The translations under genes were made by a program, and so were the position numbers. A DNA stretch of 64,000 bases from Carallia brachiata (lineage: Eukaryota > Streptophyta > Magnoliopsida > Malpighiales > Rhizophoraceae), in NCBI GenBank assembly GCA_021464245.1, contig JADCRB010000031.1, forward strand, positions 2,403,709-2,467,708. Direction: 5' to 3'. Shown in pieces: positions 10,482 to 49,593 of the stretch (position 1 is its first letter; each line of letters opens with the position of its first letter). Below the pieces are notes generated by a model. It was not told the origin of the DNA and did no database searches. It worked only from the letters and a program-made list of their open reading frames with translations.

Positions 10482-11280
10482 TGTAAAAAAAGAAAAAAAA
10501 AATTTTGAATTCAATGGCTTGCGTTGCCAATTTTGAATTGGCAACGCCGGCCAAAGAAAGATTTTTTTTTTAAAAAAAAAAAAAAATTCATTTCCCATGT
10601 GATGTTCATATGAGAAATGAACCCTATAAATAGGCCCCTGCCCCTCAGTTCAAAACATATTCAGCAAATCTGTAAACAGAAAAATTCAGAGAATTTGAGA
10701 GAAAAAGAAAATTTTGAAAATCTCTCAAGAAAATTTCTCTTTTCTTACGTGCTTTTACTCTGCAGTATACTCTCTAACTCCTTTTTGAGAGATATTTCAG
10801 GGGTAAAGCCCAAAAAATTTGCTGTTTCCATTTCTAAAGTTATTTTTAGATTTATATTCTCCGATCGCCCTAAATCTGAATTTATGAGAATATAGATCTG
10901 AAAATATCAAATTACTTCAAATCCGGCTGAGATTAAGTCTCATACGGCCCTCAGCAAAAACCAGACAGTCATCCGAGAACAAGTCCCTTCGACCTCGGTG
11001 AAATTAAGCCAGATCGGCTCAGATCAGGTCTCTGCGTTTTAACGTAGTCAAAACGTCCAATCAGATCCATTTCAGTCTACCCAGTTCAAGAAAAACTGTG
11101 GAAATTATTTCTGTCAAGATCAAGCTCGTGCAGCCCTTGACCGAGTCAAAAAAGGAACACTAATCGGAGGATCTACGGAGATCGACCCCACGTAAATTTT
11201 CTTTATTTTACAATTTTTATTTGTAATTTATTTTTGTATTTTCGAGTTTAATTGTTTTAGACTCGAAATTTACGCTTTAC
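10482..11280 (+). repeat. 5' LTR of the Tat-type element
   Basis: About 799 bases, starting TG and ending CA. A promoter TATA box (TATAAATA) lies at 10625-10632, followed by sequence shared nearly base for base with the 3' LTR. A short inverted repeat around 10530-10550 lies in the upstream part. Against the 3' LTR it lacks several single bases in short runs, for example in the stretches near 10766, 10998 and 11060. Confidence 0.92.
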
Positions 11281-11446
11281 AAATTTTTGGCACGCTCGGT
11301 GGGACATTTCACCTCCCATCTCTTGTTCCTTAAAAAAAAAAAAAGAGGTAAAAGGGAGCCGAGAGAAAAAAAAAGTAAAAAAAAGTAAAGTAAAAAAGTA
11401 AAAAAAAAGTAAAAAGTAAAAAAAAAGTAAAAAAAAAAATTTACAG

Positions 11447-12760
11447 GTGTTCAGCACATCAAATGGCACCGAAAAGGAGTACAACTGCTGCCACAAAAAA
11501 GAAGGCAACGGCTCCATGCCTGCATCAACTACCCTACCTGGGTACGCAGGTCCAGAAACCCGGGGACGGACACAATTTCTTGCCGTCCAAACCCGACAAA
11601 ATGTCGAAATGGAGAGTCCACAGCTCGCACAACAGGATCTCTCCCCTGACTCTCTTGCCGCATGGAGGAGTCGATCACCCACCCCGATCGAAGTCGGGGG
11701 CAACACGACGAAGCCTGCTCAACAAATCCACTCACACAGAAGAATCAGAAGAGTTTTCTCCCCCAGTCTTTCCCGGAGCCTCATCTGTTGCCGTCATGAT
11801 GACCAACACAACCAACAGAGGAAAGATTTCAGAATTGGAGAACAAAATTTTGCAGCTGATCAGAGTCGTGGAGGAAAAAGATCAACAGATCGCGCTCTCA
11901 AAGGAAAAGCCCCGATCCAAGTTGATCCCGAAATCCGCGAGGAGCAACCATATCCACCCGGTTTCACTCCAGAAGCCACACCAGCCGACGTCTTCCCTGC
12001 AGAAAAGCGACCAGGTAGTTCTACACAGCTGCCACCCTCAAATTCTGTAGCTTCGCTATCTGTTCAACAATTGCAGGAAATGATAGCCAATACGATCCGA
12101 CTGCAACAAGCTACATCCTTCCAAGGATCACAGATGTACGTCAAACCGTACACCAGACGGATCGAAAGTCTCAACATGCCCTTGGGCTACCAGCCGCCCA
12201 AATTTCAACAATTCGACGGACGAGGCGATCCCAAACAGCACATCGCCCACTTCGTTGAAACCTGCAACAACGCAGGGACTTACGGAGATCTCTTGGTGAA
12301 GCAGTTTGTTCGTTCACTCAGGGAGACCGCTTTCACCTGGTTCATAAATCTTGAACCAGAATCGATCGACAGTTGGGAACAGCTACAACGAGAGTTCCTC
12401 AACAGATTTTTCAGCACTCGAAGGACGGTAAGTATGATGGAGCTTACCAGCACCAAACAAAGGAAAGGAGAGCCCGTTGTCGAATACATCAACAGATGGC
12501 GTGCCCTCAGCTTGGACTGCAAAGATCGCCTGACGGAGACTTCTGCCGTGGAGATGTGCATCCAGGAATGCATTGGGAGCTGTTATACATCCTGCAGGGT
12601 GTCAAACCCCGAACTTCGAAGAACTGGCGACCCGCGCACATGATATGGAGATAAGCATCCAGACTTCCAGAGGCACAGTTCCCATCCAGTTGGACCAGCA
12701 AGGGGGTAGAAGGGGATTAAGAAACCCAACAGCTCCGGAAAAGAAAAAGAAGTGATGACT
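11447..12760 (+). CDS. gag: gag polyprotein region of the Tat-type element
   Basis: The likely start is ATG 11463 (MAPKRSTT...), after an A-rich leader. The N-terminal part holds a coiled-coil-like stretch (ISELENKILQLIRVVEEKDQ, about 11827-11886). The conserved gag core follows in another frame at about 12150-12500 (PPKFQQFDGRGDP, FVRSLRETAFTWF, LNRFF, EYINRWRALSLDCK). It continues in a third frame to about 12690. A zinc-knuckle-like C/H segment (CKYHRIVSHPTEKC) lies near 12995-13036. Gag forms the cytoplasmic particle. The frame changes mean it is not translatable as sequenced. Confidence 0.8.
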
Positions 12761-13032
12761 GTTGAAGCCGCACCAGTAAAAGTGGGCAAAGCTAAGGTAA
12801 ATCCTCCGACCCAAATAACTCAGCCAAAACAACAGGAAAGGCGGAAGGTGACATTGCGAGAGTTGGAGCAAAGCAGTATCCATTCCCCGACTCAGACGTC
12901 CCGACATTCTTGAACAACTCTTGAGGCGAAGCTGATCGAACTCCCAGAGTGCAAGCGGCCGAATGAAAAGGATCGAGTCAGCGATCCGAGATTCTGCAAA
13001 TATCACCGGATAGTAAGTCATCCAACCGAGAA

Positions 13033-14100
13033 GTGTTTCGTCCTGAAGGAGCTAATCATGAAGCTCAAAGCCAGAATAAAATCATTCTGGACCAGGAAGG
13101 CATAACTCGCAAACCAGACCACCATCACTTCAAAACCATCAGAAGAGTGACACACCGTAAGGAGGAGCCGCTCGACAACAAAAAGTCGACAACGGAGAAG
13201 GTATATGAAGCTCTCCAAACCCTTCTCGCTAACCCTCAGCTGTTTATAGCTTTGCAATCAACAGAAGTGTGGCAAAATCAAGTCAGCAATACTCTCCAGA
13301 CCTCAGCTGAATCACAGCCATCAAATGATTCTAACTCAGCGGAGCAACAGGCGGACCAAAATCACGTCGGATGTTACTCTGCTATCTCATTTTCAGATGA
13401 GGATCTCCTGCTGGGGTCCAAACCCCACAATCGGCCGCTGTATGTATCAGGCTATGTGAAAGAACAGAAGGTCCGACGTATTCTGATCGACGATGGCTCG
13501 GCAGTCAATATTATCCCAAAATCCACCATAAAGGAGCTCGGCATCGGTGTTGATGAATTATCAGACAGCCGCTTGATGATTCATGGCTTTAATCAAGGAG
13601 GACAGAAAGCAATTGGGATGATTCGCTTGGAGCTAACTATCGGTAATCTCACTTCTAGCACTCTATTTCACGTGATTGATGCACGTACCACATATAAGAT
13701 GTTGCTAGGACGACCGTGGATTCATGGAAATGGAGTTGTGCTCTCAAGCCTGCATCAGTGCTTCAAGTACTACAATGGTGGCGTTCAAAAGGTCAATGCT
13801 GACTTAAAGCCGTTCGATGATGCTGAATCACATTTGGCGGATGCAGTCTTCTACACCGACACAGACAATCCGGAGATCATTCCATCAAAAGCTACTTGGA
13901 CTGGGGGCATCCAAAAAGGGAAAAGCTGTCGAAGAACCTGCCAATGCCAACCCAGGCTCCAACAAATGAAAAGCTGCCACAGCCTGCTGAACTTCGTCCG
14001 AAGGATGTTGCATCTTCAAGCTCCACTCCAGTCCTACGCTATGTGCCGAAGTCACGACGCTCAGAAGGTCAACCCCCTTTCTCTTATTGTATTGATCTAA
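13033..14100 (+). CDS. Retroviral-type aspartic protease region
   Basis: The frame holds a pepsin-like retro-protease domain at about 13440-13740. The active-site motif is ILIDDGSAVNIIP (13477-13515), followed by LGI, MIHGFNQGG, FHVIDARTTYKMLLGRPWIH. The closing LLGRPW is typical of plant Ty3/gypsy proteases, and DDGSA replaces the commoner D[ST]G pattern, as in many Tat elements. The enzyme cleaves the element's own polyprotein. About 60 codons downstream of the domain the frame drifts, probably by an indel near 13915. Confidence 0.85.
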   Translation: MFRPEGANHEAQSQNKIILDQEGITRKPDHHHFKTIRRVTHRKEEPLDNKKSTTEKVYEALQTLLANPQLFIALQSTEVWQNQVSNTLQTSAESQPSNDSNSAEQQADQNHVGCYSAISFSDEDLLLGSKPHNRPLYVSGYVKEQKVRRILIDDGSAVNIIPKSTIKELGIGVDELSDSRLMIHGFNQGGQKAIGMIRLELTIGNLTSSTLFHVIDARTTYKMLLGRPWIHGNGVVLSSLHQCFKYYNGGVQKVNADLKPFDDAESHLADAVFYTDTDNPEIIPSKATWTGGIQKGKSCRRTCQCQPRLQQMKSCHSLLNFVRRMLHLQAPLQSYAMCRSHDAQKVNPLSLIVLI

Positions 14101-14599
14101 ACAGGAGCAAGGTCATAGCCAACCCAAACAAAAGCTGCACAACCTGAAGGAGACTTACACTCTGCCGATACCAAAGATTGAGCCGGTTTTGTCCAAAACC
14201 ATTAAAAGGCTTCGTCAAACCACACACGGGGGCAGTCGAAGGCGGCTCACTTCCAGAAAGAAGAACACATGAAGGATTTGATCCTAATGCATACAAGCTT
14301 TTGGCAAAGGCGGGCTATGACTTCTCAAACCCGAGCACAATGGGTACGCTGCCGTCCACACATGGCGCCGCTTCTCAAATCACAGTCCCGACCTGGCTTA
14401 GGCTATCAGGAGAAGTCACCTGTGCGGATCACGCTAAAGAGCCGAAGCCGAGCAGCTAATGCACGTGCTATCAGCACCACCACCAAACAAGACAGGCTTA
14501 TCCAGTCAAACAAAGAAGGTGAAGTCAGAGATCTGCATTTCATGTCACAATTAGCGAGGAGGCTGAGTCCGACTCATCTGACGGTGAAGTAAAGGAGGC

Positions 14600-15700
14600 T
14601 CCCCCGGAACTTGAAGATGGTGGCCAAGCAATTGTTGATGAACTCAAGGAGGTCAATCTTGGCTCTCCGGAAGATCCTCGACCTACATTTGTAAGTGCTT
14701 TACTTACTGCAGAAGAGACAAGAATATGTTCAGGTATTAAGTCAATACAGGGACGTGTTCGCATGGAGTTACAAAGAAATGCCTGGACTTGACCCAAAAT
14801 TGCGGTGCATCGTCTAGCAGTAAAGAAGGGTGTTCGTTCTGTCAAGCAGCCACAACGACGGTTCCGCCCGGAACTCATTCCACAAATCGAGGAGGAGGTG
14901 AACAAGCTGATCAATGCTGGCTTCATCCGAGAGGTCACCTACCCAACGTGGATTGCCAACATTGTCCCGGTAAGAAAGAAGAATGGACAGTTGAGGGTAT
15001 GTGTTGATTTTCGAGATCTTAACAGGCCTGCCCGAAAGATGACTTTCCATTGCCCATAACGGAGATCACAGTCGATGCAACAACGGGTCACGAAGCATTG
15101 TCCTTCATGGATGGTTCTTCAGGCTATAACCAAATCAGAATGGCACCAGAAGACGAGGAGTTGACAGCATTCCGCACCCCAAAAGGTATATACTGCTACA
15201 AAGTTATGCCGTTTGGATTAAAAATGCTGGCGCCACTTATCAACGTGCTATGCAAAAAATTTTTGATGACATGCTGCACAAGATTGTAGAATGTTATGTT
15301 GATGACTTAGTTGTAAAGACTAAGAAGCGCAAAGACCACCTCGAGGATCTCAAGACAGTGTTCGAAAGACTTCGGAGGCATCAGCTCAAAATGAACCCTC
15401 TCAAGTGCGCATTCGGTGTCACATCAGGAAAGTTTCTTGGGTTCGTGGTGCGCCATCGTGGAATCGAAGTTGATCAGTCAAAGGTTGAGGCAATTCAAAA
15501 GATGCCTGAACCTAAAAACCTGCACGAGCTAAGTCTACAAGGAAAGCTGGCTACATTCGCCGTTTCATCTCCAATTTAGCTGGGAGATGTCAACCTTTCC
15601 ATCGGTTGATGAAGAAGGATGTCAACTTCGAGTGGGACGAAGCTTGCAGCAAAGCCTTTGAGAGCATAAAGAAGTACCTTTCCAATCCACCGTCCTAGGG
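14600..15700 (+). CDS. Reverse transcriptase region
   Basis: RT motifs appear in order: VNKLINAGFIREV and WIANIVPVRKKNG (about 14897-14990), RVCVDFRDLN (14995-15024), SGYNQIRMAPED (15119-15154), TAFRTPKG and the catalytic YVDDL (15295-15309), then LGFVVRHRGIEVD. It copies element RNA into DNA. The frame breaks near 15024, 15222, 15550 and 15692-15700. At each break the conserved motif continues in another frame, and a short run of one base lies at the junction. The product is dead as sequenced, although motif conservation is high. Confidence 0.9.
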
Positions 15701-15720
15701 CTCCAATTCAAGGAAAGTCG

Positions 15721-16610
15721 TTGATTCTCTACATTGCAGCGCAGGAAAGATCTTTGGGAGCCTTGCTTGCACAGGAAAATGAGCAGGGAAAGGAAGTTGC
15801 CCTGTACTACTTGAGCAGAACACTAAACGGTCCGGAGCTGAGTTATTCGCCCATTGAAAAGACATGTCTAGCACTGTTCTTTGCCATTGACAAGCTGAGG
15901 CACTACATGCAAGCTCACACGGTACGTCTCATTGCCAGAGCTGATCCTGTCAAATATATCTTATCCAGACCAATCTTGTCAGGACGACTTGCCAAGTGGG
16001 CAGTAATCCTACAAAGCTACGACATTGTCTACGTGCCTCAAAAAGCAGTCAAAGGACAAGCTCTAGCAGACTTCCTTGCAGATCACCCTGTTCCGTCAGA
16101 TTGGGAGTTCACAGATGATCTTCCAGATGAAGAGGTCTTTTACATTGAGACACTGCCACCATGGACGATGTTCTTTGATGGTGCAGCAAGGCGTGATGGT
16201 GCTGGTGCCGGCATAGTGTTTGTCACTCCTCAACGACAAATACTACCATATGCTATCATTCTCGGTGAGTTATGTTCAAATAATGTTGCTGAATACCAGG
16301 CTTTGATCATTGGTCTTCAAATGGCTGTCGATATGAAGATTCCAACTATAGAAGTCCATGGAGATTCCCAGCTCGTCATCAACCAACTTACAGGATTGTA
16401 TGACGTGAAGAAAGAGGACCTTGCGCCTTACCATCAACGTGCTCGACAGCTAATGGATGAATTTGAAAGCATCACCTTGGAGCATGTGCCTCGACGAGAA
16501 AAACTCAGGCAGACGCGTTGGCTAACCTGGCCACTTCTCTTGCAAAGTCAGAAATCCAGGCTACAGTTGTTGCCGTATGCCAGAAATGGATAGTGCCACA
16601 GAAGGATGAT
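15721..16610 (+). CDS. Tandem RNase H domains (gypsy-type plus archaeal-like second domain)
   Basis: The 290-codon frame contains a gypsy RT-linked RNase H (LGALLAQENEQGKE, YYLSRTL, SYSPIEKTCLALFFA, about 15750-15890). After a linker comes a second RNase H with FFDGAARRDGAGAGIV (about 16170-16217), AEYQALIIGLQMA and VHGDSQLVINQL. The second domain shows the expected D, E and D acidic residues. The first domain has YIAAQ where active versions usually carry an Asp, so it may be a degenerate tether. Dual RNase H is a hallmark of Tat-lineage elements. A frame change near 16500 precedes the ADALANLA-like tail. Confidence 0.88.
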
Positions 16611-16819
16611 GAAGAAACTACAGCAGCCAACGCTGTATCTGTACGTCTCGCGGAGGACGAGGATTGGCGCCAACCAATCATTGACTACTACAGCACGGGA
16701 AGCTGCCCGAAGATCGTCGTCATAAGACAGAAATTCAACGACGAGCTCCCCGCTTCATATATCTCAAGGATGCTCTGTATCGAAGGTCTTTTGATGGAGT
16801 TTTACTTCGCTGCCTAGGC

Positions 16820-17901
16820 AATGAAGAGGCAAAACAGGCTCTACTGAAGCACATTCTGGTGTTTGTGGCGGACATCAATCGGGTAAGTTGCACTTCCAAC
16901 TCAGAAGGATGGGATACTACTGGCCAACCATGGTACGTGATTCAATTGAGTTTGCTAAAACTGTCAAGCTTGTCAATTTCATGCGAATTACATACATCAA
17001 CCACCAGAGCCACTGCATCCAACTGTCTCATCCTGGCCCTTTGAAGCTTGGGGTCTCGACTTAGTGGGGCCCTTGCCAAAGTCATCCCTGGGTCACCTGT
17101 ACATCCTCGCAGCAACCGACTACTTCTCAAAATGGGCTGAAGCCATTCCACTTAGAGAGGTAAAGAAGGAGCATGTTGCCAATTTCATCCGGACTCAGCT
17201 GATCTATCGCTATGGAGTCCCTCGATTCATCATCACTGATAATGGTAAGCAGTTCTACAACAGCTTAATCGACAAGCTCTGCGAGAAGTTCAAGTTCAAG
17301 CAGTACAAGTCATCCATGTACAATGCCCCAGCAAATGGCTTGGCCGAAGCATTCAACAAGACCTTATGCAACCTGTTGCGGAAGGTAGTCTCTAAATCCA
17401 AAAGAGATTGGCATGACAGAATTCCGGAGGCATTATGGGCGTATCGTACAACTTACCGGACTCCAACACAGGCGACGCCATACTCACTTGTCTACGGTGT
17501 CGAAGCAATACTGCCGTTGGAAACACAGATTCCATCCCTGCGCATGGCTGTTCTGGAAGGACTCACACAGGAGGAGAATGCTCGCCTACGTCTGGATGAG
17601 TTAGAAGCCTCGATGAAAGGAGGCTCGAAGCACAACAGCAACTTGAGTGCTACCAAGCCCGGCTCACCAACACGTTTCAACCGCAGGGTCCGCCCTCGAT
17701 CTTTTCAAGTTGGAGACCTTGTTCTTGCAGTGCGACGGCCCATCAACATGAAGCATCGGCCTGGTGACAAGCTTACTTCCAAATGGGACGGGCCATACTT
17801 AGTGCAGGAGGCCTACACTCACAACGCTTACATGCTGTCAGACCAAGAAGGCGTCCGAATCGGCCCATCAATGGTAAATTTCTGAAACAGTATTATGTGT
17901 A
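16820..17901 (+). CDS. Integrase region
   Basis: The zinc-binding part is readable in pieces at about 16870-17030, with YYWPTMVRDSIEFAKTC-like sequence in shifting frames. The catalytic core is one clean frame from 17064. It has D in AATDYFSKWAEA (17109 onward), D in FIITDNGKQF (17227 onward) and E in GLAEAFNK (17338 onward), giving the D,D-35-E triad. It then carries ALWAYRTTYRTPTQATPYSLVYG and a C-terminal part with SFQVGDLVL and WDGPYLV. A break near 17864 leads to a TGA. In the neighbouring frame the usual KFLK..YYV-type ending and stop TAA fall at 17899-17901. Confidence 0.9.
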
Positions 17902-17919
17902 AATATGTTTAAAAAAAAT

Positions 17920-17961
<42 letters not shown>

Positions 17962-18240
17962 AAAAAAAAAAGTTCGAAGTCCCGATCTGAAAGACCAAGC
18001 GAAAATCCAAACCCAAACACTTGAGCCCAATTCAGAGTCCAACTCAAACCAAAACAAATCCAAACCAAAACCCAAACACTCGACCCAAATCCAAAAATCC
18101 AAGTCTAGAAGCCCAAACACTCGACCCAAATCCAATCCAAAACCCAAAAGCCAAAAATTCCAAGTTCCAGACACAGTCCAAACCCAAGTTCAAAATCCAA
18201 TCCAACTCCTGGCCCGCATGAGTATAAACTGTGAACGGCC
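17902..18240 (+). repeat. A-run and C/A-rich spacer inside the element
   Basis: After integrase there are long adenine runs (about 17922-17970), then about 200 bases almost wholly of CCAAA/CCCAAAC-type words. The latter include a near-exact direct repeat at about 18070-18093 and 18113-18136. It looks like a non-coding spacer between the polyprotein and cargo genes. Spacers with tandem repeats are common in Tat elements. Confidence 0.7.
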
Positions 18241-18246
18241 CAAAAA

Positions 18247-18253
18247 TATAAAA
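18247..18253 (+). promoter_or_regulatory. TATA box upstream of the homeobox ORF
   Basis: TATAAAA lies 95 bases before the ATG at 18342, in an A-rich setting followed by GC-richer leader. This is normal spacing for a plant promoter with a 60-65 base 5' UTR. It suggests the cargo gene may have its own transcript rather than depending on the LTR. Whether it is used is inference. Confidence 0.45.
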
Positions 18254-18341
18254 GCACGGAGGGTTTGAGTCTGAAACTCAGCATCAGTCTCAACCGATCT
18301 TCACCACATACCAAGACCTTTGCTCCTCTGCCACAAGAAAG

Positions 18342-18605
18342 ATGGAACCAGTTGCAGAACCTCAAGACAAGGGAGAAGAAAGGTCACCCCGCACAAGGTG
18401 GCAACCGACCATGGCACAACTGCAAATTTTGGAGGAAGTCTTCCACAACAATGGAGGTATTATTCCTAGTGCATCTCAAATTTACCAACTTGTCTCACGA
18501 TTGCGCCCGCTCGGGGCAATCGAAGGAAAAAATGTGTTTTATTGGTTCCAGAATCGGAGAAGCAGGAAGAAACCAGCACTGAGAACTGCTTTTTCCAAAG
18601 AATAG
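18342..18605 (+). CDS. WUSCHEL-related homeobox ORF carried in the retrotransposon (homeodomain part)
   Basis: This is an 87-residue frame from ATG 18342. Residues 17-78 form a WUS/WOX-type homeodomain: RTRWQPTMAQLQILEE (helix 1), SASQIYQLVSRLRPLG (helix 2) and IEGKNVFYWFQNRRSRKK (turn and recognition helix). IEGKNVFYWFQN is typical of the WUS clade, while NRRSR rather than NHKAR resembles the WOX8/9/11/12 group, so the domain is mosaic. WOX proteins are plant nuclear transcription factors for stem-cell and meristem identity. A TAG at 18603 ends the frame soon after the homeodomain, but related coding sequence continues to 18949. No intron is visible, which fits capture through RNA. It lies inside the LTRs, after INT and before the polypurine tract. 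Confidence 0.9.
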   Translation: MEPVAEPQDKGEERSPRTRWQPTMAQLQILEEVFHNNGGIIPSASQIYQLVSRLRPLGAIEGKNVFYWFQNRRSRKKPALRTAFSKE

Positions 18606-18949
18606 TCTGTCGTAGATCCCACCGGTACAGCTTCACCCTCAAATGAAGCAGGTCCGAGTTCTTCCACTGCAATGGTCTCTCCACGGTATGTTCATCAAAG
18701 CCGTAGCCCATGGGAGCATGCATGCTGGTCCTGGTGGTCTTACGGAGTCAGCCAAGGGTTCATCCCTCCTAGATACTTAAGTCTAGGAGGAATTTTTCTA
18801 GCAGAAAGGAGTATTCCGGCGAAACTTTGCCTCTCTTTCCAGAATATTCCGGCAGCATCAACCAGCCGGAAAGCGACGTCGACGTCAACATCATCGGCCC
18901 ACCAGACGAGGTCGAGCTTGACTTGGAGTTGCGCCTCGGCCCCCGCTAG
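18606..18949 (+). pseudogene. C-terminal half of the captured WUS-type gene (WUS-box and EAR motif) beyond stop and frame changes
   Basis: Right after the stop, the homeodomain frame stays open with Ser/Thr/Pro-rich sequence (TGTASPSNEAGPSSSTAMVS). The reading then moves to another frame. There 18824-18841 encodes TLPLFP, the exact core of the WUS-box, and 18917-18937 encodes LDLELRL, an EAR-type repression motif, before TAG 18947-18949. WUS-box followed by a C-terminal EAR-like motif is the known architecture of WUSCHEL-clade proteins, which recruit TOPLESS co-repressors. So the element took up a whole WUS-clade coding region of roughly 200 codons. It is interrupted here by one stop and at least one frame change near 18770-18790. 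Confidence 0.8.
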
Positions 18950-19143
18950 GACGACCGACAATATAAGGTATAACGACTTTGGCAGCACACGGCAACGACT
19001 TCGGCAACCCACGGTAACCACTTTCGTGACACGCGTCAGCCGCTGCCTCTTTTGTCTCTTATGCAGGAAAGGGACGTGGATGGCCCTACTCGATTCTGCG
19101 TACCTTCTTTTTGACTTTTCAAACAAAAAAAAAATCTTTATCT

Positions 19144-19158
19144 TATATATATATATAT
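19144..19158 (+). promoter_or_regulatory. TATA-like (TA)n box upstream of the second cargo ORF
   Basis: A TATATATATATATA stretch lies 55-69 bases before ATG 19213. A pyrimidine-rich leader (19186-19205) sits where a transcription start and short 5' UTR would be expected. It may be a second internal promoter, or simply a microsatellite. Confidence 0.35.
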
Positions 19159-19212
19159 CTTGCATTCCCGAGTTGTAATACTCACCCCTCAGCTCTTCTT
19201 TCTCAAAAGAAA

Positions 19213-19635
19213 ATGGCTAGTCTCTGCACTTGTCTCAGGAAGTTCTTCGATCAAGAAGTTGGAGGCGCACGAGCTAAGAAAAGAAGGAGTAGTCTTCCTC
19301 GAGGGATCCCTAAAAGCCCTCGAAACTCAGTCTCCAACGCCATCGGTGTCATGGAGTTCCAACTACTCTCCTTAGTTCACATCTACCACAGAGGGATGAG
19401 AAGCTGCAATCATCCTAATCTTCCTTTGGATGCGGCGACGTACAGGGAAGTTCCAACTACTCTCCTTACGTCGAAGCAGACTTGGGAATCATCACTACAG
19501 TCAGTCTCTCTGTGTGCCGGTCTTGAAGTTCCGAGGTACTGGGCCTTCCTCTTGGGGAGGTTCAAGTTCTTTGCCTACCGGATCATCCTCACCAGAGCTT
19601 TGGAACTTCAAAGAACCTTTGCCAGCCTTTGCTAG
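19213..19635 (+). CDS. Second cargo ORF of the element, unidentified
   Basis: From ATG 19213 (MASLCTCLRKFFDQEVGG) the frame runs 140 codons. An early basic cluster, ARAKKRRSSLPR, could be a nuclear localisation signal. I do not recognise a domain. A 19-base direct repeat at 19356-19374 and 19450-19468 is read in different frames. In other frames the repeat gives SSNYSP, and a Ser-rich stretch (GSSSLPTGSSSPELW) follows to about 19660, so the true product may use a different frame downstream. It sits between the homeobox gene and the polypurine tract. It may be a Tat accessory ORF or a second captured host sequence. Confidence 0.4.
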   Translation: MASLCTCLRKFFDQEVGGARAKKRRSSLPRGIPKSPRNSVSNAIGVMEFQLLSLVHIYHRGMRSCNHPNLPLDAATYREVPTTLLTSKQTWESSLQSVSLCAGLEVPRYWAFLLGRFKFFAYRIILTRALELQRTFASLC

Positions 19636-19876
19636 CTATGGAAGTTCGAATGCACCTGGAGCTAGAATGTTAATTTTTATATTGGCTGGGCTGCTAACTT
19701 TCTCAAGATCATATCAGTTTCCATTTGCGATCCAACAATATCAGGCATAGTCAGAGTTAGAAGACTTCAACATTCAATGATCATCAAGACATCTCAAGTT
19801 TCAAACTGGACTTCAAGACTTGATTCGGATCATTTCTGTAAAATTCTTCCTTACCAACCCTTGAAGTGGAGGCATT

Positions 19877-20663
19877 TGTAAACATTATTTTCAAAAAAAA
19901 AAAAAAAAAGTCAAAATTGGCGTTGCCGACTTTAAAAAAAAAAATTAATTAAAAGATTCCTTTCTCATGTGATGTTCACATGGGAAAGGAACCTTATAAA
20001 TAGGTCCCTGCCCCTCAGTTCAAAACATATTCAGCAAATCTGTAAACAGAAAAATTCAGAGAATTTGAGAGAAAAAGAAAATTTTGAAAATCTCTCAAGA
20101 AAATTTCTCCTTTTCTTACGTGCTTTTACTCTGCAGTATACTCTCCTAACTCCTTTTTTAGAGATATTTCAGGGGTAAGGCCCAAAAAATTTGCTGTTTC
20201 CATTTCCAAAGTTATTTTTAGATTTATATTCTCCGATCGCCCTAGATCTGAATTTATGAGAATATAAATCTGAAAATATCAAATTACTACAAATCTGGCT
20301 GGGATTAAGCCTCATACGGCCCTCAGCAAAATTCAGGCAACTCATCCGAGAACAAGTCCCTTCGACCCTCGGTGAAATTAAGCCAAATCAGCTCAGATCT
20401 GATCTCTGCGGTTCTTAACCGTAGTCTAAACGTCCAAATCAGATCCAGTTTCAGTCTACCCAGTTCAAGAAAAAGTTGTGGAATTTATTTCTGTAAAGAT
20501 CAAGCTCGTGCAGCCCTTGACGGAGTCAAAGAAGGAACACTAATCGGAGGATCTACAGAGATCGAACCACGTAAATTTTCTTTTATTTTTATAATTTTCA
20601 ATTTGTAATTTATTTTTGTATTTTCGAGTTTAATTGTTTTAAACTCGAAATTTACGCTTTACA
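19877..20663 (+). repeat. 3' LTR of the Tat-type element
   Basis: About 787 bases, TG to CA, preceded by a purine-rich tract. TATAAATA lies at about 19995-20002. It matches the 5' LTR closely, with scattered substitutions and single-base length differences. Confidence 0.92.
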
Positions 20664-20920
20664 AGAAAGTAAAGAGAAAATAAAATTATTTAGAGTAGTA
20701 GAGAAGTTAATAGAAAAAAAGTATGGTGAAAGAAAAGATTAATAGTAATTTATAAGTGAAAAAGTTAAGAGAAAATAAAATTATTTAAAATAGTAAAAAA
20801 AGTGTGAAAAAAAATATGATGAAAGAAAAGGTAAATAATAATTTATGAGTAAAAAAATAAAAAAAATTAAAATTATTTAAAATAATAAAAAAATAAAAAA
20901 ATAAAAAATAATTATTATTA
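20664..20920. repeat. Degenerate tandem repeat next to the 3' LTR
   Basis: Roughly 98-base units containing GAGAAAATAAAATTATTT start near 20672, 20768 and 20866. Later units are more A-rich. No coding potential is seen. Confidence 0.55.
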
Positions 20921-21419: not shown

Positions 21420-21783
21420 TGTAAACATAAAAAAAAAAAAGAAAAAAAAAAGAGTCAATAGTCGACTTATTCCTTTCGTATGTGTACTTTCACACGGAAA
21501 AGTAAACTTATTCCCTTCGCACGCGTGCTTTCACACAGAAAAATCGACTTATTCAACCTTTTAGATCCAGTTTCAGTCTACTCAGTTCAAAATAAAGTTG
21601 TACAAATTATTTCTGTCAAGATCAAACTCGTGCAGCCCTTGACGGAGTCAAAAAAAAGGGATACTAATCCGAAGATCTACGGAGATCGACCACAGGTAAA
21701 TTTTTTTTTATTTTTAATTTTTATTTAATTTATTTTTGTATTTTCGAGTCTAATTATTTCAGATTCGAAATTTACCCGTTACA
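21420..21783 (+). mobile_element. Short solo LTR of the same Tat-type family
   Basis: It begins TGTAAACAT and ends CGTTACA. From about 21565 to 21783 it matches the 3' half of the full element's LTRs. The part containing the LTR TATA box is missing or replaced by two copies of a CTTATTCC...TTTCACAC motif (21465-21540). Perfect 5-base target duplications GGCCT flank it (21415-21419 and 21784-21788). The copy inserted properly and then lost its body by LTR recombination, as a 364-base variant. Confidence 0.85.
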
Positions 21784-24173: not shown

Positions 24174-24957
24174 TGTAACGAGCGTAAATTTTGAAACTGT
24201 AACAATTAGACTCGAAAATATAAAAATAAATTATAAATAAAAATTTAAAAATAAAAGAAAATTTACATAAAGTCGATTTTCGTAATTCCTCCGATTAGTG
24301 TTCCTTTATAACTCTATCAAGGATTGTACGAGTTTGATCTTGACAGCAGTAAATTCCACAATTTTTTCTTAAACTGGGTAGACTGAAACTGGATCTGATA
24401 TAGATATTTAGATTACAGTTCAGAACTACAGAGACCTGATCTGAACCGATCTGACTTAATTTCACTGAGAGTCGAAGGGATTTATTATCGGATGAGTTAC
24501 CTGAACTTTACTGAGAGTCGTATGAGACTTGAACCCAGTCAGATTTGTAATAATTTGATATTTTTAAATATATATTCTCATAAATTCAAATTTAAAATGA
24601 TTAGAGAATATAAATCTAAAAATAACTTTAGAAATGAAAACAGCAAATTTTTTGAAATTTACACTTGAAATATCTCTTAAAAAAAAGTTAGAAGAGTGTA
24701 CTGCAGAATAAAATACATAAGAAAAGAGAAAATTTTTCTTAAAAGATTTTCAAAATTTTTTTTTTCTCTCAAATTCTCTGTATTTTTCTGTTTACAGATT
24801 TACTGAATATATTTTAAACTGGGAGTAAAGACTTATTTATAGGGTTTCATTTCCGTGTCGTGTGAAAGGAAGAAAGTTTAAATTAATTATGCGGCTGGTC
24901 GGCGTAGCCGATTTTAAGGTCGGTGATGCTAATTATTGACTTTTTTTTTTGTTTATA
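24174..24957 (-). mobile_element. Solo LTR of the same Tat-type family, minus strand
   Basis: The reverse complement follows the LTRs of the full element end to end: GTAAATTT terminus, the disease-free stretch matching GATCTTGACAG/CTGGGTAGACTGAAACTGG, and a degenerate TATTTATAG promoter box at about 24834. It is more diverged than the element's own LTR pair, so it is older. Imperfect 5-base target duplications flank it: GCGAG (24169-24173) and GTGAG (24958-24962). Confidence 0.85.
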
Positions 24958-37079: not shown

Positions 37080-39285
37080 GATGAATTACAAATTTAGTCT
37101 CACTAGTTGACCTAGTTAAAATTTAAACTAATAATCTTTTATATAAACCTAAATTCTTGTACTAAATTAAATCACACAAATAGTAAGTCTTTTATAAGTT
37201 TTTTTGAGCAGTTTTTTAGTTTCATTCTATACACGATGGTCAATTGAGAGTAATATCGCCCCATACAAATAGCGAGCATTTTCTATTATGGAGCCCATGA
37301 TCCTCCAAAGCTCCAGAGGAAGCAAAAGTTATACAAGGTTCAGTTCGGCCAGAGGCATGTAACGAGCACAAGAACTTGCGACGAATTAGGCCGAAAACCT
37401 TGCGAGGCTTTAGGGCTGGGCCTCGAGAAGACTTAGAATAAAGTTTTGCCATTTCAATCATTTCTTTCATCTCATTGTTGCTGCTGTATCGATATGATTC
37501 ATATCAATAAAATTTAGCCCCCCTATGATAAAAAAAAAAAAAAAATTTAACCCCCAAGGTTATAACCTAAGTGAGGTCTGAAGCGATCTCACTATCAGTT
37601 AAATTTTTTTCTCCCACTCTAATTATACTAAAAAAAAAAATTTAGTCTCACTCGGACTATGGAACTCAATTGCAATATTCTCAAAAAGTATGTTTAGTAT
37701 GCAGACTAAATAGTATAAGATATGACAACATATAATAAGTTAGATTATTAGTTTATATTATATTTGTATAGAATTAAGTAAGACGGAATAGTTTTTTCAT
37801 TAACCTCCTTGGAAAGTGCCTAGATGCCTGAACTGCATACTAATGGCAGGAGCTCCTCAAGTTACACTTTGTGCTGCCGGGCGCTGGGGGTGGGCGGGCG
37901 CCTCTTCTCTCTTTTCTCTTCTTATGCTTGTCTTTTCACTTGCAAGGCAACCAGCGAAGTGGAAGTGTAAATCTTTGTCAAATAGAAACTTAAAAAGTTG
38001 TTTCGCTAGTCATTAACATTATAATTTAATATATGATCCACATGTACACTGATCGTCTTTTGAGCGCATTTTTTTATTTTTTTTACAACTAAGACTTTTG
38101 TATCTAGCACAAATATACCAAATTTTAATTTTATCACCAAATAGTAATTTCCCTTTTTTTAATAAATTTTAGAAGGAGTGATCACATACTATAAGTGAAG
38201 GGGCATGATGAAAAAGTAACGAGAGAATAAACCACACCACTGCAAACTGTAAAGAAGCTTACAGCCTCTTTCCTACTGGACAACGCCAAATCCTCCGAAA
38301 TGGTAAGTTGGGCCACAGGCCCACAAGACCCACTTTTCTTGATTTAAAGTTAGACCAGCTCGACAGTCCTAGTATATCATCCATTGTTAATTCATTCATT
38401 CTAGAATGAAACAGACGTCTTGACCCAAAAAAAAAAAGAAAAAAGAATGAAACAGACGTTTCTTGGAAGGTCTTCGCCGGGTGAGTAGTAGACTAGTACG
38501 TGTGCGCGGGACTTTTCTATCAGTGTGTTTGCTTGACTTGTCAGGCCCCTGATATTTGACGTCTTCCCTTTCGGCCACTGTTGGCAACTGGTGCAAATCA
38601 CAAAAAATTTGACAATTGTCAAAGGACAAAAATATATGACGAAACGTTTGGTACATCAATAAGATAAAAATAAATTTAAAAAATTATTTTTTAAAACTTA
38701 AATTTTAAAAATAATATTAAGTAATCTAAAATAATATTAAATATATTCAAAAATTAATATTTTTTTACAAAAAAAAAAAATATGGTCATAGGTTTTGTCC
38801 CGATGGCCATGAACAACGTATGGCTATGTAAATTGCCGCATGGTCTATATGGCAGCGTAAACAAATCCCATCAGCACCCCCTATATAAACCATTTCGAGA
38901 ATGCAGAACCTTTCATCATCACAAAGCCAACAAAAAAACACATTTTATCTTTTTTCCAATGGCTTCTTTATCTCAGTTAAGTCTACTCTGCTTCCTTTTG
39001 TCTCTCTATCTTTGTCCCATACACTGGCCAGCCTAGCATCTCCAACACCCAAGGCACTGATCCTCCCAGTCTCCAAAGATGACTCTCCAATACACAATTC
39101 ATCTCAGTATAGGAACCCCATTTGTGCAAAAAATGCTTGTTGTGGATCTCGGGGCCAACATTTTTGGAAGAAATGCAATGAGGATTACGAATCATCCACC
39201 TTCAGGCCAAGCCCATGTGGCTCAGCTCCATGCTCCGTAGCTAAAGCCAGTTGTGGTCCAAGGGACTGCAATCCCAATAGTCCTA

Positions 39286-39892
39286 TGTTCCGGTCAAATC
39301 TAAATTAGATCGTGAAATAAATAGTGTATAAAGTATGAACAAAATATGTATAAAATGGGAATAAAGGAAAAAATAACTTTGAAGTTGAGAGAAAGAAATT
39401 ATTAAAAAGAAAAAATTATTTATGATGAGCCATTTATATATTAATTTGTCTTCATTTTTATTCGGTTTTTTCACATATAACTATGAGTTTTTTTTAGAAG
39501 GGAAAGTTGTACCACTTTGTGGTACCGAGAGGTACTAATTTGAAAGTGTTATTTATGTGTTACAGATATATATCTGTTATGAGATCTTGTGTTGGTGGTA
39601 ATGGTTTGCAGATGAGTTTGTAAGATATATTAAGAGAAAGAGAGGCTTTTGTCACCCGATATTAAGTCTTATATTTTTATATATTTTATAGGCTGTGAGA
39701 TTTGTATAAATATAGTGAATGGCTAAAGTGTATTGAACATTTAGATATAGTAAGTCTTTCACAAGAAATTATAATTTTTTTATTTGTTTTTGCCAATAAA
39801 ATTAAAATCATAGTCTGCTTTTGCGCTTCTATGCTTATGCAACCCAATAGTGTTATCAGGTCTTTAGTTGTCTAACGGAGAATTTCTCTACA
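39286..39892 (+). mobile_element. Copia-type LTR plus leader inserted in the pseudogene
   Basis: It starts TGTTCCGG and runs to CCCAATA (39849), 564 bases. A TGTTATCAGGTC string at 39851-39862 follows, which resembles TGGTATCAGAGC, the initiator-Met tRNA primer site of most plant copia elements. Homology to the intact gene stops before 39286 and resumes at about 39893. There is no gag-pol and no second LTR. The 9-mer CCCAATAGT occurs both just upstream (39273-39281) and at the LTR end (39843-39851). Confidence 0.7.
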
Positions 39893-40714
39893 CCCTGTCA
39901 CGCCAAGGCCACGACAACACTCGCACTGTCTTGTCTGTGGAAACTGTCTTTGGTAAATTGGAAGTTGGAGAGATTTCCAGGACAGAATAGCCATACAAAC
40001 CACAGACAGATCAAAATCAGGACCGCCCGTCACAATTCCTGACTTCATCTTCGCCTGTGCAAGTGCCTGGAATATAACCAATCTTGCTACTGGAAGCAAA
40101 GGAATGGCTGGACTTGGAAGGCCCCAAATTGCGCTACCAAAGCAGCTTTCCTCAGCATTCGGTGGAACCCTTAAGCGCAAATTCGCTATGTGCTTGCCTT
40201 CCACTCCTGATTCCAATGGCCTCATTATCTTCGGTGACTCTCTTTACGCATTCTATCCTAACTACGATCGATCAAAGTCCATAGACGTAACCTCATGGTT
40301 TAAGCGCACCAGGCTCTAAGTCAACACCGTGTTCACCGGATCATCCATCGTCACCCGAGGGCTGCCGTCTCCGGAGTATTTTGTGAAGGTGACATCAATC
40401 CTGGTAAACAATAAGCCTATCCCCATAAACTCAACTTACCTGGAATTCCACCAGAATGGTCTTGGAGGAACAAAAATATCCACGGTGGTTCCGTACACAA
40501 CTCTGGAGAGGTCGATCTACCAGGCCCTTGTCAAGGCGTTTGATGAAGAGATCGCAGCCTGGAATGTCACCAAGGTGGCCCCTGTGGAGCCTTTCTCGGA
40601 ATGTTATACCATGGGCAACTTGGGCAGGACGCTGCTTGGTCTCGGTGATCCTGATATTACTTTTGTGTTTGAAAACAATAAAAATGTGTATTGGCAAATG
40701 TTTGGAGCTAATAC

Positions 40715-41078
40715 TGTTGCGGAAATAAACGCGATGAAAAAAAAAAAAAAAAATGGAACACACAGATTTTGCGTGAAAAACTCTAATGTGGGAAAAAACT
40801 ACGGGCAAAGAGGAAAAATTCATTAAGAACGAAGAAGAGTACAGAGAGAGTTTAGGGTAGTAGTAATATAATAATCTTTAAAACTTTAGTTGAAAAGAAT
40901 AAATATATGTATACAATGAACTCTAAAGGTCAAAATAAATATAAGTCCAAAACATAATAAGTCCATATTAAGTTAGAAGTGCATATTATGTTGCACCACG
41001 AACTTTTTGAATCAAATTGAAAAGACCACGAACTCTTTGGATCAGACTGAGTGGGATTCGGGTCAGTATATTCCAATA
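40715..41078 (+). mobile_element. Copia-type solo LTR inserted in the pseudogene
   Basis: This 364-base insertion begins TGTTGCGGAAAT and ends TTCCAATA. It contains the AGATTTTGCGTGAAAAACTC / TGGGAAAAAACTACGGGC word pattern common in plant copia LTRs. It interrupts the conserved CDS exactly where the sister gene is continuous. Near-identical 5-base flanks AATAC (40710-40714) and AACAC (41079-41083) look like a target duplication. Confidence 0.75.
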
Positions 41079-41890
41079 AACACAGTGGTGCAGATGAGCA
41101 AGGATGTGGTGTGTTTGGCGTTTATGGATGGGGCTGAATGGCCAATTCCTACTACCTCGATCGTCATTGGGACACACCAGTTGCAGGATAGTCTTCTTCT
41201 GTTTGATTTGGATTCTTTTAGGATGTCTTTTATGTCCACACTTCTCAGGGAAGAAATTGAGTGCGCAAACTTCAAGTTTTAAATTTGTGTTTACTTGTTA
41301 GGATTATTATCTGCGCTTGCTATTTGTATTCATAAATTATGTGAATGTAATAGACTTACCTTTTAACTTACTTAGTACCACATGTTCAAGTAAGCCAACA
41401 TAATTTTAAAATCAGTCTCCATATATTCATTGGAAAAAAAAAATCAATTAATCTATTTTGAAACACAAAACATCAACTAAGAAAACATAGTCAATACCAT
41501 TGAGCTCCACCTTTAAAACACCTTTTAGTTTACCTTTTTGGTTTCTAATCTAACCAGTTGATCTGCTTCTTCTAGGATCACCAAATTCAATCTGCCCAGA
41601 TGTGGAGGATTGGGAAAAGGGAAATGAGACTACTATACTAGTTTTTGCTGTTCCTGTAGTCATTTTCAGAATTTGACATAAAAAGTTACCGACCCAAATT
41701 TTTGAGTACTTAGTTCCTTCATTTATCATCCGAACAAGAAAAGATGACAGTTTCTTTTTAAACTTTAGTTACAGAAAATTTTGCTTACTTCATATCAGAT
41801 GCTCAAAGTCGCCTCTATTTATTTAGTTTCGAAGAAGCTAATTAAATATTTTAGTTGTTCAAATCTTATGCAATTAAATTTGAAGATTTA

Positions 41891-47100: not shown

Positions 47101-48083
47101 AATAATATTAAGTATATTTAAAATTTATTTTAAAAAAATAAAAAAAGAATTTAAATAGTATATGCCTATGTAATGAAACTGTAATTTAATATATGATTCA
47201 TATTTTTATTCTCTTCCAACTTCCAAGAGTTTAATCTTTTGAGAGGAATATATGTATATAATATATATATTTATTTATTTATTTTCTTTTTTGGACAACG
47301 AAGGCTTTTATAGCGAGCACATATTTACCAAATTTTAATTTTATCACCAGATAATAATTTTTTATTTTTTATTTTTGAAAACAGTGGTCACAAACTATAA
47401 AAGAAGGGTTAAGACGAGGAAATGACGGGATCTTGAATTCTACTATAATTTGAAAAACTGCTCATACTTTTTATTACTGGACTACGCTCAATCGTCTCAA
47501 ATAGTAATTTCATTTTTTTTAATAAAGAAAATGAGAAAGCGGTGGTAGCGTTCCAACATTCTCGCCATGGAACATTGCACTATATTACTATAGTGAGGCT
47601 GCAAGTTCGGATGATTACAGCAATCATAAGACCCTAGTGTTGGTGTAAATTTAGAATTATTACACGTTCAGGTAAGACTCAAACCTAAAATTTATAATCA
47701 ATATGTTCGAACATTTATTATTAAATTATGACGGACGAGTGATCTAAATAGTAATTTCTCATGAATGTCTCAAGCAGCGAATTCCGCTCCATCTCTGGGG
47801 TTAAAATGCGCAAACCCATCAAAGGACCCACTTTTCTTACTTGAAGTTGGGCTAGGACCAACAGTCTTTATATATCATTTATTGTTAATTAATTCGTTGT
47901 AGAATGAAATAGACTTTTCTTGGAAGGTCTCGGCCGGATGACAAGTGTGCGCGGGACTTTTCTTGTCAGGCCCTTAGATTTGACGTGTTCCTTTTTGGCC
48001 ACTTGAGGGGGTAACTCAAGCAAATCGCTAAAAATTGACAATGGTCAAATATGGCAGCACAAGCAAATCCCATCGGCACTCCC

Positions 48084-48090
48084 TATATAA
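48084..48090 (+). promoter_or_regulatory. TATA box of the EDGP/XEGIP-like gene
   Basis: TATATAA lies 70-76 bases before ATG 48160. It is conserved in the duplicate (38882-38887). It places transcription start near 48115-48120, after the upstream in-frame ATG at 48103, and so supports 48160 as the start codon. Confidence 0.7.
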
Positions 48091-48159
48091 ACCATTTCAA
48101 GAATGCAAAACCTTTCATCATCACAAAGCCAACAAAAAAACACATTTCATCTCTTTCCA

Positions 48160-49511
48160 ATGGCTTCTTCATCTCAGTTAGGTCTACTCTGCTTCCTTCT
48201 TGTCTCTCTATCTTTATCCCACACACTGGCCAGCCTAGCATCTCCAAAACCCAAGGCACTGATCTTCCCAGTCTCCAAAGATGCTGCGACTCTCCAATAC
48301 ACAACTCATCCCGGTATAGGAACCCCATTTGTGCAAAAAAAGCTTGTTGTGGATCTCGGGGGCCAGCATTTTTGGATGCAATGCAATGAGGATTACGAAT
48401 CATCCACCTTCAGACCAAGCCCATGTGGCTCAGCCGCATGCTCCGTAGCTAAAGCCAGTTGTGGTCCAAGGAATTGCAATCCCAAAAGCCCTGTCACGCC
48501 AAGGTGCCACAACAACACCTGTACTGTCTTGTCGGTCGAAACTGTCTATGGTAAGTTGGAAGTTGGAGAGATTTCCATGGACAGAATAGCCATTCAAACC
48601 ACAGACGGATCAAAATCAGGACCGCCCGTCACAATTCCTGACTTCATCTTCTCCTGTGCAAATGCCTGGAATATATCCAATCTTGCTACTGGAAGCAAAG
48701 GAATGGTTGGACTTGGAAGGCCCCAAATTGCGCTACCAAAGCAGCTTTCCTCAGCATTCGGTGGAACCCTTAGGCGCAAATTCGCCATGTGCTTGCCTTC
48801 CACTCCTGATTCCAATGGCCTCATTATCTTCGGTGACTCTCCTTACGTATTCTACCCTTATTACAATCAATCAAAGTCCATAGACGTAACCTCAAGGTTT
48901 CAGCACACCAGGCTCTACGTCAACACCGTGTTCACCGGATCATCTATCGTCACCCGAGGGCCGCCGTCTCCGGAGTATTTTGTGAAGGTGACATCGATCC
49001 TGGTAGACAATAAGCCCATCCCAATAAACTCAACTTACCTTGAATTCCACCAGAATGGTCTTGGAGGAACAAAAATATCCACGGTGGTTCCTTACACAAC
49101 TCTGGAGCGGTCAATCTACCAGGCCCTTGTCAAGGCGTTTGATGAAGGGATCGCAGCCTGGAATGTCACCAAGGTGGCCCCTGTTGAGCCTTTCTCGGAA
49201 TGTTATACCATGGGCAACTTGGGCATGACGCTGCTTGGTCTCAGTGTTCCTGATATTACTTTTGTGTTCGAGAACAACAAAAATTGTATTGGCAGATGTT
49301 TGGGGCAAACACAGTGGTGCAGGTGAGCAAGGATGTGGTGTGTTTGGCGTTTATGGATGGGGCTGAATGGCCAATTCCGATTACCTCGATCGTCATTGGG
49401 ACACACCAGTTGCAGGATAATCTTCTTCTGTTTGATCTTGATTCTTCTAGGATGTCTTTTACTTCCACCCTTCTCTGGGAAGAAATTGAGTGCGCAAACT
49501 TCAAGTTCTAA
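48160..49511 (+). CDS. EDGP / xyloglucanase-inhibitor-like secreted protein (A1 aspartic-protease fold), one frame break
   Basis: An intronless gene of about 450 codons, the usual EDGP/XEGIP length. It has a signal peptide of about 24 residues (MASSSQLGLLCFLLVSLSLS). The N-lobe active-site position reads VVDLGGQHFWMQC, with DLGG instead of DTGS, and the C-lobe site reads STVVPYTTLERS with no DTG/DSG. The Cys-rich N-lobe (CNEDYESSTFRPSPCGSAAC) and GLGRPQIALPKQLSSAF are also typical. Such proteins are apoplastic and catalytically dead. Relatives inhibit microbial xyloglucan endoglucanases (XEGIP) or act as EDGP/basic 7S globulin-like proteins, usually in defence. A one-base loss at about 49284-49286 ends the frame early. 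The last 75 codons (to CANFKF) continue in the next frame, and the sister pseudogene keeps the missing base. A real truncation or an assembly error are both possible. Confidence 0.92.
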
Positions 49512-49593
49512 AATTTGTGTTTGCTAGAAGCTCATGTAAGCTTGAGTTCATGCTGGAATATTTCTTGGATTAGTGGATATGCTTTGAGGCATT

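Follow-up and report, generated by a model that had tools for sequence, protein, structure and literature searches.

Plant long terminal repeat (LTR) retrotransposons are already known to carry extra open reading frames (ORFs). Closest in layout are elements with an antisense ORF (aORF), in which the extra frame sits between the integrase and the polypurine tract (PPT) and is retained through the family (PMC11963269). The aORF product of TRP28 is described as probably able to bind DNA (PMC11963269), and most antisense aORFs are said to have no known origin (PMC7264820). In Phalaenopsis, Tat/Ogre-like elements have retained and amplified a host-derived ORF for an AlkB N6-methyladenosine (m6A) demethylase, and a screen of 121 genomes in the same article gives 15 uncommon domains, including 2-ODD, PMD, G-patch, AIR1, B3, KOW/L26, ArgoL2 and YgdH (PMC9289625). 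Here we describe a 64,000-nucleotide stretch of the Carallia brachiata genome (contig JADCRB010000031.1, positions 2,403,709 to 2,467,708; 'the window' hereafter), in which a retrotransposon at 10482-20663, by its domain content a Tat-type Ty3/gypsy element, carries a WUSCHEL (WUS)-type gene between its integrase and its PPT. The position is that of the antisense aORFs, but the WUS-type ORF runs in sense and its gene of origin can be recognised as a developmental regulator. The Phalaenopsis elements are likewise Tat elements with an extra ORF of host derivation, but theirs specifies an enzyme acting on RNA whereas the one described here specifies a homeodomain transcription factor. What appears to be new is a recognisable master regulator of plant stem cells whose homeodomain bears the mark of purifying selection. 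In the open-licence papers searched, no plant LTR retrotransposon was found to carry a homeodomain or WUS gene, and an earlier mention may exist elsewhere. The main text of PMC9289625, whose full domain chart is in its supplement, contains neither 'homeo' nor 'WUS', and the relevant terms gave 0 counts in PMC3726574.

The WUS-type gene occupies 18342-18949 on the forward strand, as do all features of the element given below. The stretch 18342-18602 matches the homeodomain family PF00046 (E=2.5e-13), with the homeodomain region itself at 18390-18578 (codons 17-79), and the best of its two sequence matches in the PDB is WUSCHEL (6ry3, E=3e-19). This confirms the preliminary description of the window, which had reported a WUSCHEL-related homeobox (WOX) homeodomain inside a Tat-type Ty3/gypsy element, between integrase and PPT. 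The description had also claimed a WUS box (TLPLFP, 18824-18841) and an EAR motif (LDLELRL, 18917-18937) downstream; positions and order proved right, but the three motifs do not share one ORF in this copy. The gene is broken here by a stop codon (18603-18605) right after the homeodomain frame and by a later frameshift, and the WUS box and EAR motif lie in another frame than the homeodomain, whereas other copies hold an intact ORF in one frame. A six-frame search of the window gives a single TLxLFP. When 18603-18980 was shuffled 20,000 times with dinucleotides preserved, TLxLFP alone arose in 9 shuffles and LxLxL alone in 3584, and none had an LxLxL after TLxLFP within one open frame, which rules out a chance resemblance of the motifs, in line with what had been argued. 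The WOX stretch of the window copy shows no intron, again as claimed. Just 3' of the WOX stop codon, 18967-19066 (GTATAA...TATGCAG) resembles a short intron.

The gene is widespread in the genome. We searched the 337.5 Mb assembly with a 36-base homeobox probe, which at up to 3 mismatches gave 649 matches (318+331) against 0 for the reversed control, and with an integrase probe, which gave 773 (359+414; control 0). A genome search with the homeodomain returned 1716 first-look candidates, and the best 150, which were scored, had 94-100% identity, 4 with an internal stop. From these data two sets of copies were drawn. An 89-copy set, including the window copy, was chosen by similarity to the homeodomain or to a WUS protein, 60 of its members being hand-picked down the 150 scored rows. 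The other set was blind to WOX and comprised 20 places sampled through the integrase probe alone (alternate entries among the first 39 of 100 listed exact integrase matches, on contigs C1 to C19). After removal of four duplicates the two sets amount to 105 distinct copies; the projected WOX rows of L091-L093, L095 and L024 are identical, and all five stayed in the counts. The homeobox was present downstream of the integrase in 20/20 integrase-sampled places, intact or broken, many of them broken. All 89 copies of the first set have an ATG start, and in 31 of these a single frame of 200-212 amino acids spans homeodomain, WUS box and EAR-like motif. ORFs of 195-215 amino acids with a homeodomain and an EAR-like end ('long ORFs') were found in 43 copies. 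A WUS-box-like motif, as expected of the WUS clade, is present in 42 of these (strict TLxLFP in 32), and an LxLxL near the C terminus, the EAR motif of WUSCHEL proper, in 40.

For 29 copies, window copy included, flanks of 1.5 kb were compared. The same 3' stretch lay downstream in all 29 and the same integrase, by blastn, upstream in 24. The host's own WUS/WOX genes lie at other locations than the element copies. The preliminary description had allowed for two outcomes that would count against it, namely absence of the homeobox from the other copies of this LTR family and a host gene fragment lying between independently inserted LTRs. Neither was observed: the probe matches and the integrase-chosen places show the homeobox in other copies too, and the constant integrase and 3' flanks, the target duplications of two copies (see below), the separate location of the host genes and the integrase-sampled places rule out a host fragment between independent LTRs. 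The interpretation that the element retains the gene is thus supported.

In L019, L021, L022, L025 and L026 we observed a repeat-filled spacer upstream of the WOX module, with an integrase end that is short and diverged or unseen: identity was 73% in L022 and 60% in L025 (30 amino acids) and 71% in L019 and L026 (14 amino acids, weak E-values), and none was seen in L021. Because these five copies differ in spacer and integrase end, the same WOX module seems to occur in at least two element backgrounds, as a 3' module common to element lineages. Four integrase-sampled copies (L111, L114, L117 and L126) encode a second homeodomain type, for example VEGKNVYFWFQNRRHRE in L114. The uncorrected synonymous difference between the second and the common type is 0.31 in the homeodomain and 0.07 in the C-terminal part, and this disparity points to mosaic WOX genes within the family, that is, to exchange between WOX-bearing lineages. 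Among IMG/VR contigs searched for relatives, 10 stretches fitted a pattern and none was confirmed.

To judge by their LTRs, some copies of the family moved recently. Six copies were fetched for dating, with both LTRs from four (all but L002 and L040). The LTRs of L078 differ by 2 mismatches and 12 gap positions in 871 columns (K=0.0023), and K was 0.0165 for L091, 0.0304 for L036, 0.0416 for L056 and 0.0553 for the window copy, whose LTRs are 91.8% identical over 735 aligned columns (10569-11282 versus 19931-20664). At an assumed substitution rate of 1.3e-8 these values correspond to insertion ages of ~0.1 to 2.1 million years. Exact 5-bp target duplications flank L078 (GTAAA) and L036 (GTATA), and both copies combine paired LTRs, primer binding site (PBS), PPT and target-site duplication. 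No clean target duplication was found for the window copy.

Directly upstream of the gene we found a conserved 140-bp module (18202-18341 in the window copy). Across the 105 copies, agreement per site was 0.965-0.994 in the 20-bp bins from -140 to -1 and 0.79-0.94 farther upstream, and a TATAAAA at -95 (18247-18253 in the window) was present in 100 of 105. In the integrase-sampled set the contrast was smaller (0.977 in the module versus 0.955). From the per-site agreement and the TATA sequence we infer that the module is the internal promoter and leader of the WOX gene.

We next consider selection on the ORF. With the method of Nei and Gojobori (NG86), the ratio of nonsynonymous to synonymous substitution (dN/dS) among the 43 long ORFs was 0.11 in the homeodomain and 0.72 in the middle region, the homeodomain value being biased since selecting copies by homeodomain or WUS similarity lowers the apparent dN there. 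In the integrase-sampled set, broken copies included, pooled homeodomain dN/dS was 0.35 (95% interval 0.22-0.53) and that of the whole ORF 0.50 (0.39-0.67). We then compared variants with a neutral expectation derived from the mutation spectrum of the non-coding downstream stretch, which predicts 2.8 nonsynonymous (N) changes for each synonymous (S) one in the homeodomain; the counts exclude codons that differ by more than one step from their nearest neighbour (10 in the homeodomain). Homeodomain variants shared by at least 3 of the 105 copies were N11:S19 plus 1 stop (omega 0.20, p=2e-5), while rare ones were 36:19 (omega 0.67, p=0.11). With the cut at 5 copies, shared variants were 5:9 (omega 0.20, p=0.003). 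In the integrase-sampled set, homeodomain variants in at least 2 copies were N10:S9 (omega 0.39, p=0.038). For shared variants the signal was weaker in the rest of the ORF (omega 0.65, p=0.049 in the middle region; 0.54, p=0.08 in the C-terminal part), and the homeodomain is the most constrained large part. Because omega of shared homeodomain variants is low, also in the WOX-blind sample, these counts indicate that the homeodomain was under purifying selection while the copies spread and that many copies decayed afterwards.

Like WUSCHEL, a WOX protein of the modern (WUS) clade, the element protein has an MEP start, a spacing of 53 residues from RW to WFQN in the homeodomain, the order homeodomain-WUS box-EAR and the base-contact residues. 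It differs in its shorter and divergent middle, and its gene in being intronless and in existing as hundreds of mobile copies. The host genome holds two WUS genes, L009 and L010, with similar homeodomains, and further WOX genes, L011-L017, whose names are our own assignments. The labels of L009-L012, L015 and L017 comprise two WUS genes plus paired WOX1 and WOX4 genes, as after a genome duplication. In L009, the host WUS gene whose introns were read, two introns follow the homeodomain, and both are missing from the element gene, as would be expected if a spliced RNA had been captured. The homeodomains of element and L009 are identical at 33/68 positions (~49%), suggesting that the capture is old or that evolution was fast. 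A recent capture from the host's own WUS is unlikely, given this identity and the lack of grouping with host WUS in a poorly resolved tree.

The RW-to-WFQN length is 53 in 24/24 rows labelled WUS and in 10/10 element rows but 52 in 19/19 other WOX rows, with the group labels partly our own. In the homeodomain tree, whose labels WOX1/2/3/4/5/11 and some of whose WUS labels we likewise assigned by motif and several rows of which are hypothetical or unnamed proteins (row P0011, labelled WOX2, is named WOX5 at source), the ten element rows form one clade (99/88) and the host WUS genes stand near WUS of Podostemaceae (94/83). Descent of the element gene from WUS itself is supported by the one-residue indel confined to WUS and by the motif layout, not by the homeodomain tree. 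The homeodomain is too short for the WOX phylogeny that the preliminary description had proposed to prove this descent. The RNA-mediated capture suggested there agrees with the missing introns, and the dN/dS comparison of element copies proposed there indicates purifying selection on the homeodomain.

A protein search returned 422 matches. All of the 120 listed have the length of 53, and many are named WUSCHEL, others being hypothetical or unnamed. Among these 120 no element-encoded relative in another species was recognised, which does not amount to absence, given 302 further matches beyond those listed and plant gene annotation in which transposons are often masked. Four proteins, P0004, P0005 and P0068 (145-161 amino acids) and P0006 (207 amino acids), are short, divergent WUS-like proteins, three of them named from Ipomoea and P0004 unnamed; a 53-residue homeodomain of WUS type was seen in three rows examined.

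The residues by which WUS contacts DNA are largely kept. With the residue list of PMC7203112, R38, the docking W39, Q89 and N90 are present in 43/43 long ORFs and R94 in 42/43. Position 36 is Arg in 41/43, and the engineered S36R exchange in WUS is reported to alter binding of a TAAT probe while binding of TGAA is kept (PMC7203112). The recognition helix QNRRSR resembles that of WOX11/12. For copy L002 a fold of three helices is predicted, with block means of the predicted local distance difference test (pLDDT) of 92-95 over residues 21-70; the mean for the whole protein is 62.6, and outside the homeodomain the fold is not confidently predicted.

Taken as a whole, we consider the following reading somewhat probable. 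Long ago, a Tat-lineage Ty3/gypsy family would have captured a spliced WUSCHEL transcript and retained it between integrase and PPT, where it would form a third gene with the 140-bp TATA module as its own promoter. The product would be a dwarf WUS of ~200-210 residues that binds DNA through its homeodomain and recruits TOPLESS-type corepressors through its WUS box and EAR motif, as these motifs do in WUS. In host nuclei it would act in trans, mimicking or modifying WUS, and thereby favour the element in meristem-derived cells that found the germ line. Capture from WUS mRNA, promoter function, DNA binding, corepressor recruitment and, above all, benefit to the element are inferred steps. Mimicry or antagonism of WUS in stem cells is a plausible benefit, because a transient rise in transposon expression before flower induction is described for Arabidopsis shoot stem cells (PMC7560203) and WUSCHEL is cited for the exclusion of viruses from stem cells (PMC10589665). 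A bolder version, which we put forward only tentatively and doubt more than we believe, makes the element a counterpart of oncogene-bearing retroviruses: with a WUSCHEL of its own and a retuned homeodomain, it might alter stem-cell fate or defence such that more founders of the germ line bear or express the element. Oncogene-bearing retroviruses hold a captured host regulator of growth or fate on an LTR element. The likeness lies in the captured regulator, and the difference in that here the gene runs through the whole of the sampled family.

Several observations weigh against the reading of a retained and functional WUS. More than half of the copies (58/89) fail the strict test for an intact gene. 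At the 5-copy cut, rare homeodomain variants also lie below the neutral expectation (42:29, omega 0.51, p=0.005), which blurs the difference between older and newer changes; when shared and singleton homeodomain variants of the 20-copy set were compared by a Fisher test, the result was not significant (p=0.64; p=0.19 within the common type). The middle of the ORF is weakly constrained, and the six WUS-box codons, few as they are, show no constraint of their own (ratio ~1 or above). The best homeodomain tree puts the long element branch with the WOX11/12 side (75/76), and placements with WUS, WOX1, WOX4 or other modern WOX are likewise not rejected (p 0.26-0.45). Finally, five LTRs and the 140-bp module were searched for the published WUS motifs TGAATGAA, TTAATGG and the G-box, and none was present; TGAA is high in only one of the five LTRs, that of L078 (20 versus 14.8 expected; 13/300 shuffles as high).

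Other roles for the protein can be considered. It might be an antagonist that competes with host WUS for DNA sites and corepressors and so weakens, for example, the antiviral state of stem cells, opening the niche to the element. The short homeodomain-WUS box-EAR layout with its divergent middle would fit such a competitor, as would the changed N-terminal arm with Arg at position 36 (PMC7203112) and the role cited for WUSCHEL in virus exclusion (PMC10589665), but most long ORFs keep the repression motifs and the protein need not be dominant negative; we regard this as rather unlikely. Still less do we expect an accessory protein that sets transcription of the element by binding to its LTR or internal promoter, in the manner of retroviral accessory factors, even though captured domains repeatedly include ones that bind DNA or RNA (PMC9289625) and PMC11963269 can be counted in its favour. 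Binding of the own LTR through known WUS motifs is not supported, these motifs being absent from the five LTRs and the module, and for this reason we prefer an action on the host to self-regulation.

The strong constraint on the homeodomain would also be expected of a chromatin tether or nuclear-import factor, in which the homeodomain serves the integration complex and not transcription. A tether, however, could do without the WUS box and EAR motif, which most long ORFs keep, and we regard this role as very unlikely. The broken copies and the weakly constrained middle would fit a functionless transduced host fragment that hitch-hiked on one successful master copy. Such a passenger is hard to reconcile with purifying selection on homeodomain variants, seen in the WOX-blind sample too, with the conserved upstream module and with the presence of the same WOX module in copies that differ in spacer and integrase end, which leaves it extremely improbable.

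If a captured WUS does act in trans for the element, it would give a mobile element a direct route to the cells from which the plant germ line arises, and a single encoded protein would make it possible to test whether plant transposons manipulate host development for their inheritance. Elements of this family may also inflate the number of WOX genes counted in this plant.

The remaining parts of the window element follow the Tat plan. Its 5' LTR (10482-11281, TGTAAA...TTTACA), with the start placed by the TGTAAA that opens the 3' LTR, is followed by the PBS-like stretch TGGCACGCTCGGTGGGAC (11288-11305), which also follows the 5' LTR in L078, L036 and L056. A gag ORF whose frame ends early (11447-12643; PF03732, E=2.4e-13) precedes an aspartic protease region (13033-14100), for which both matches are weak and below the curated cut-off (PF13650, E=6e-4; PF13975, E=1e-3). 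The reverse transcriptase is broken over three frames, of which two of three pieces match PF00078 (4.5e-10 and 2.3e-15), its coordinates (14862-15576) being the limits of the pieces searched. An RNase H (PF17917, E=7.9e-23) and a second, archaeal-type RNase H of the RVT_3 family (PF13456, E=1.3e-20) lie at 15721-16593, and the integrase (PF00665, E=1.4e-9) at 17064-17885. The order gag-protease-reverse transcriptase-RNase H-integrase, with the integrase after the RNase H, is that of Tat-lineage Ty3/gypsy elements, weak protease match included, and the dual RNase H is a Tat feature (PMC9289625). The PPT GAAGTGGAGG (19863-19872), with the counterpart GAAGTGGGGG in L078, L091 and L036, stands just before the 3' LTR (19877-20663), which was delimited by sequence and LTR-LTR alignment.

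Between the WOX gene and the PPT lies a small ORF (19213-19635) without a Pfam match. Further LTR pieces of the same family, 83-85% identical, occur at 21563-21783 and 24174-24858, one partial on the forward strand and one inverted. Elsewhere in the window, 38069-41286 and 47279-49515 form a direct duplication ~9.2 kb apart, within which an ORF at 48103-49326 encodes what looks like an aspartic protease of the basic 7S globulin type.
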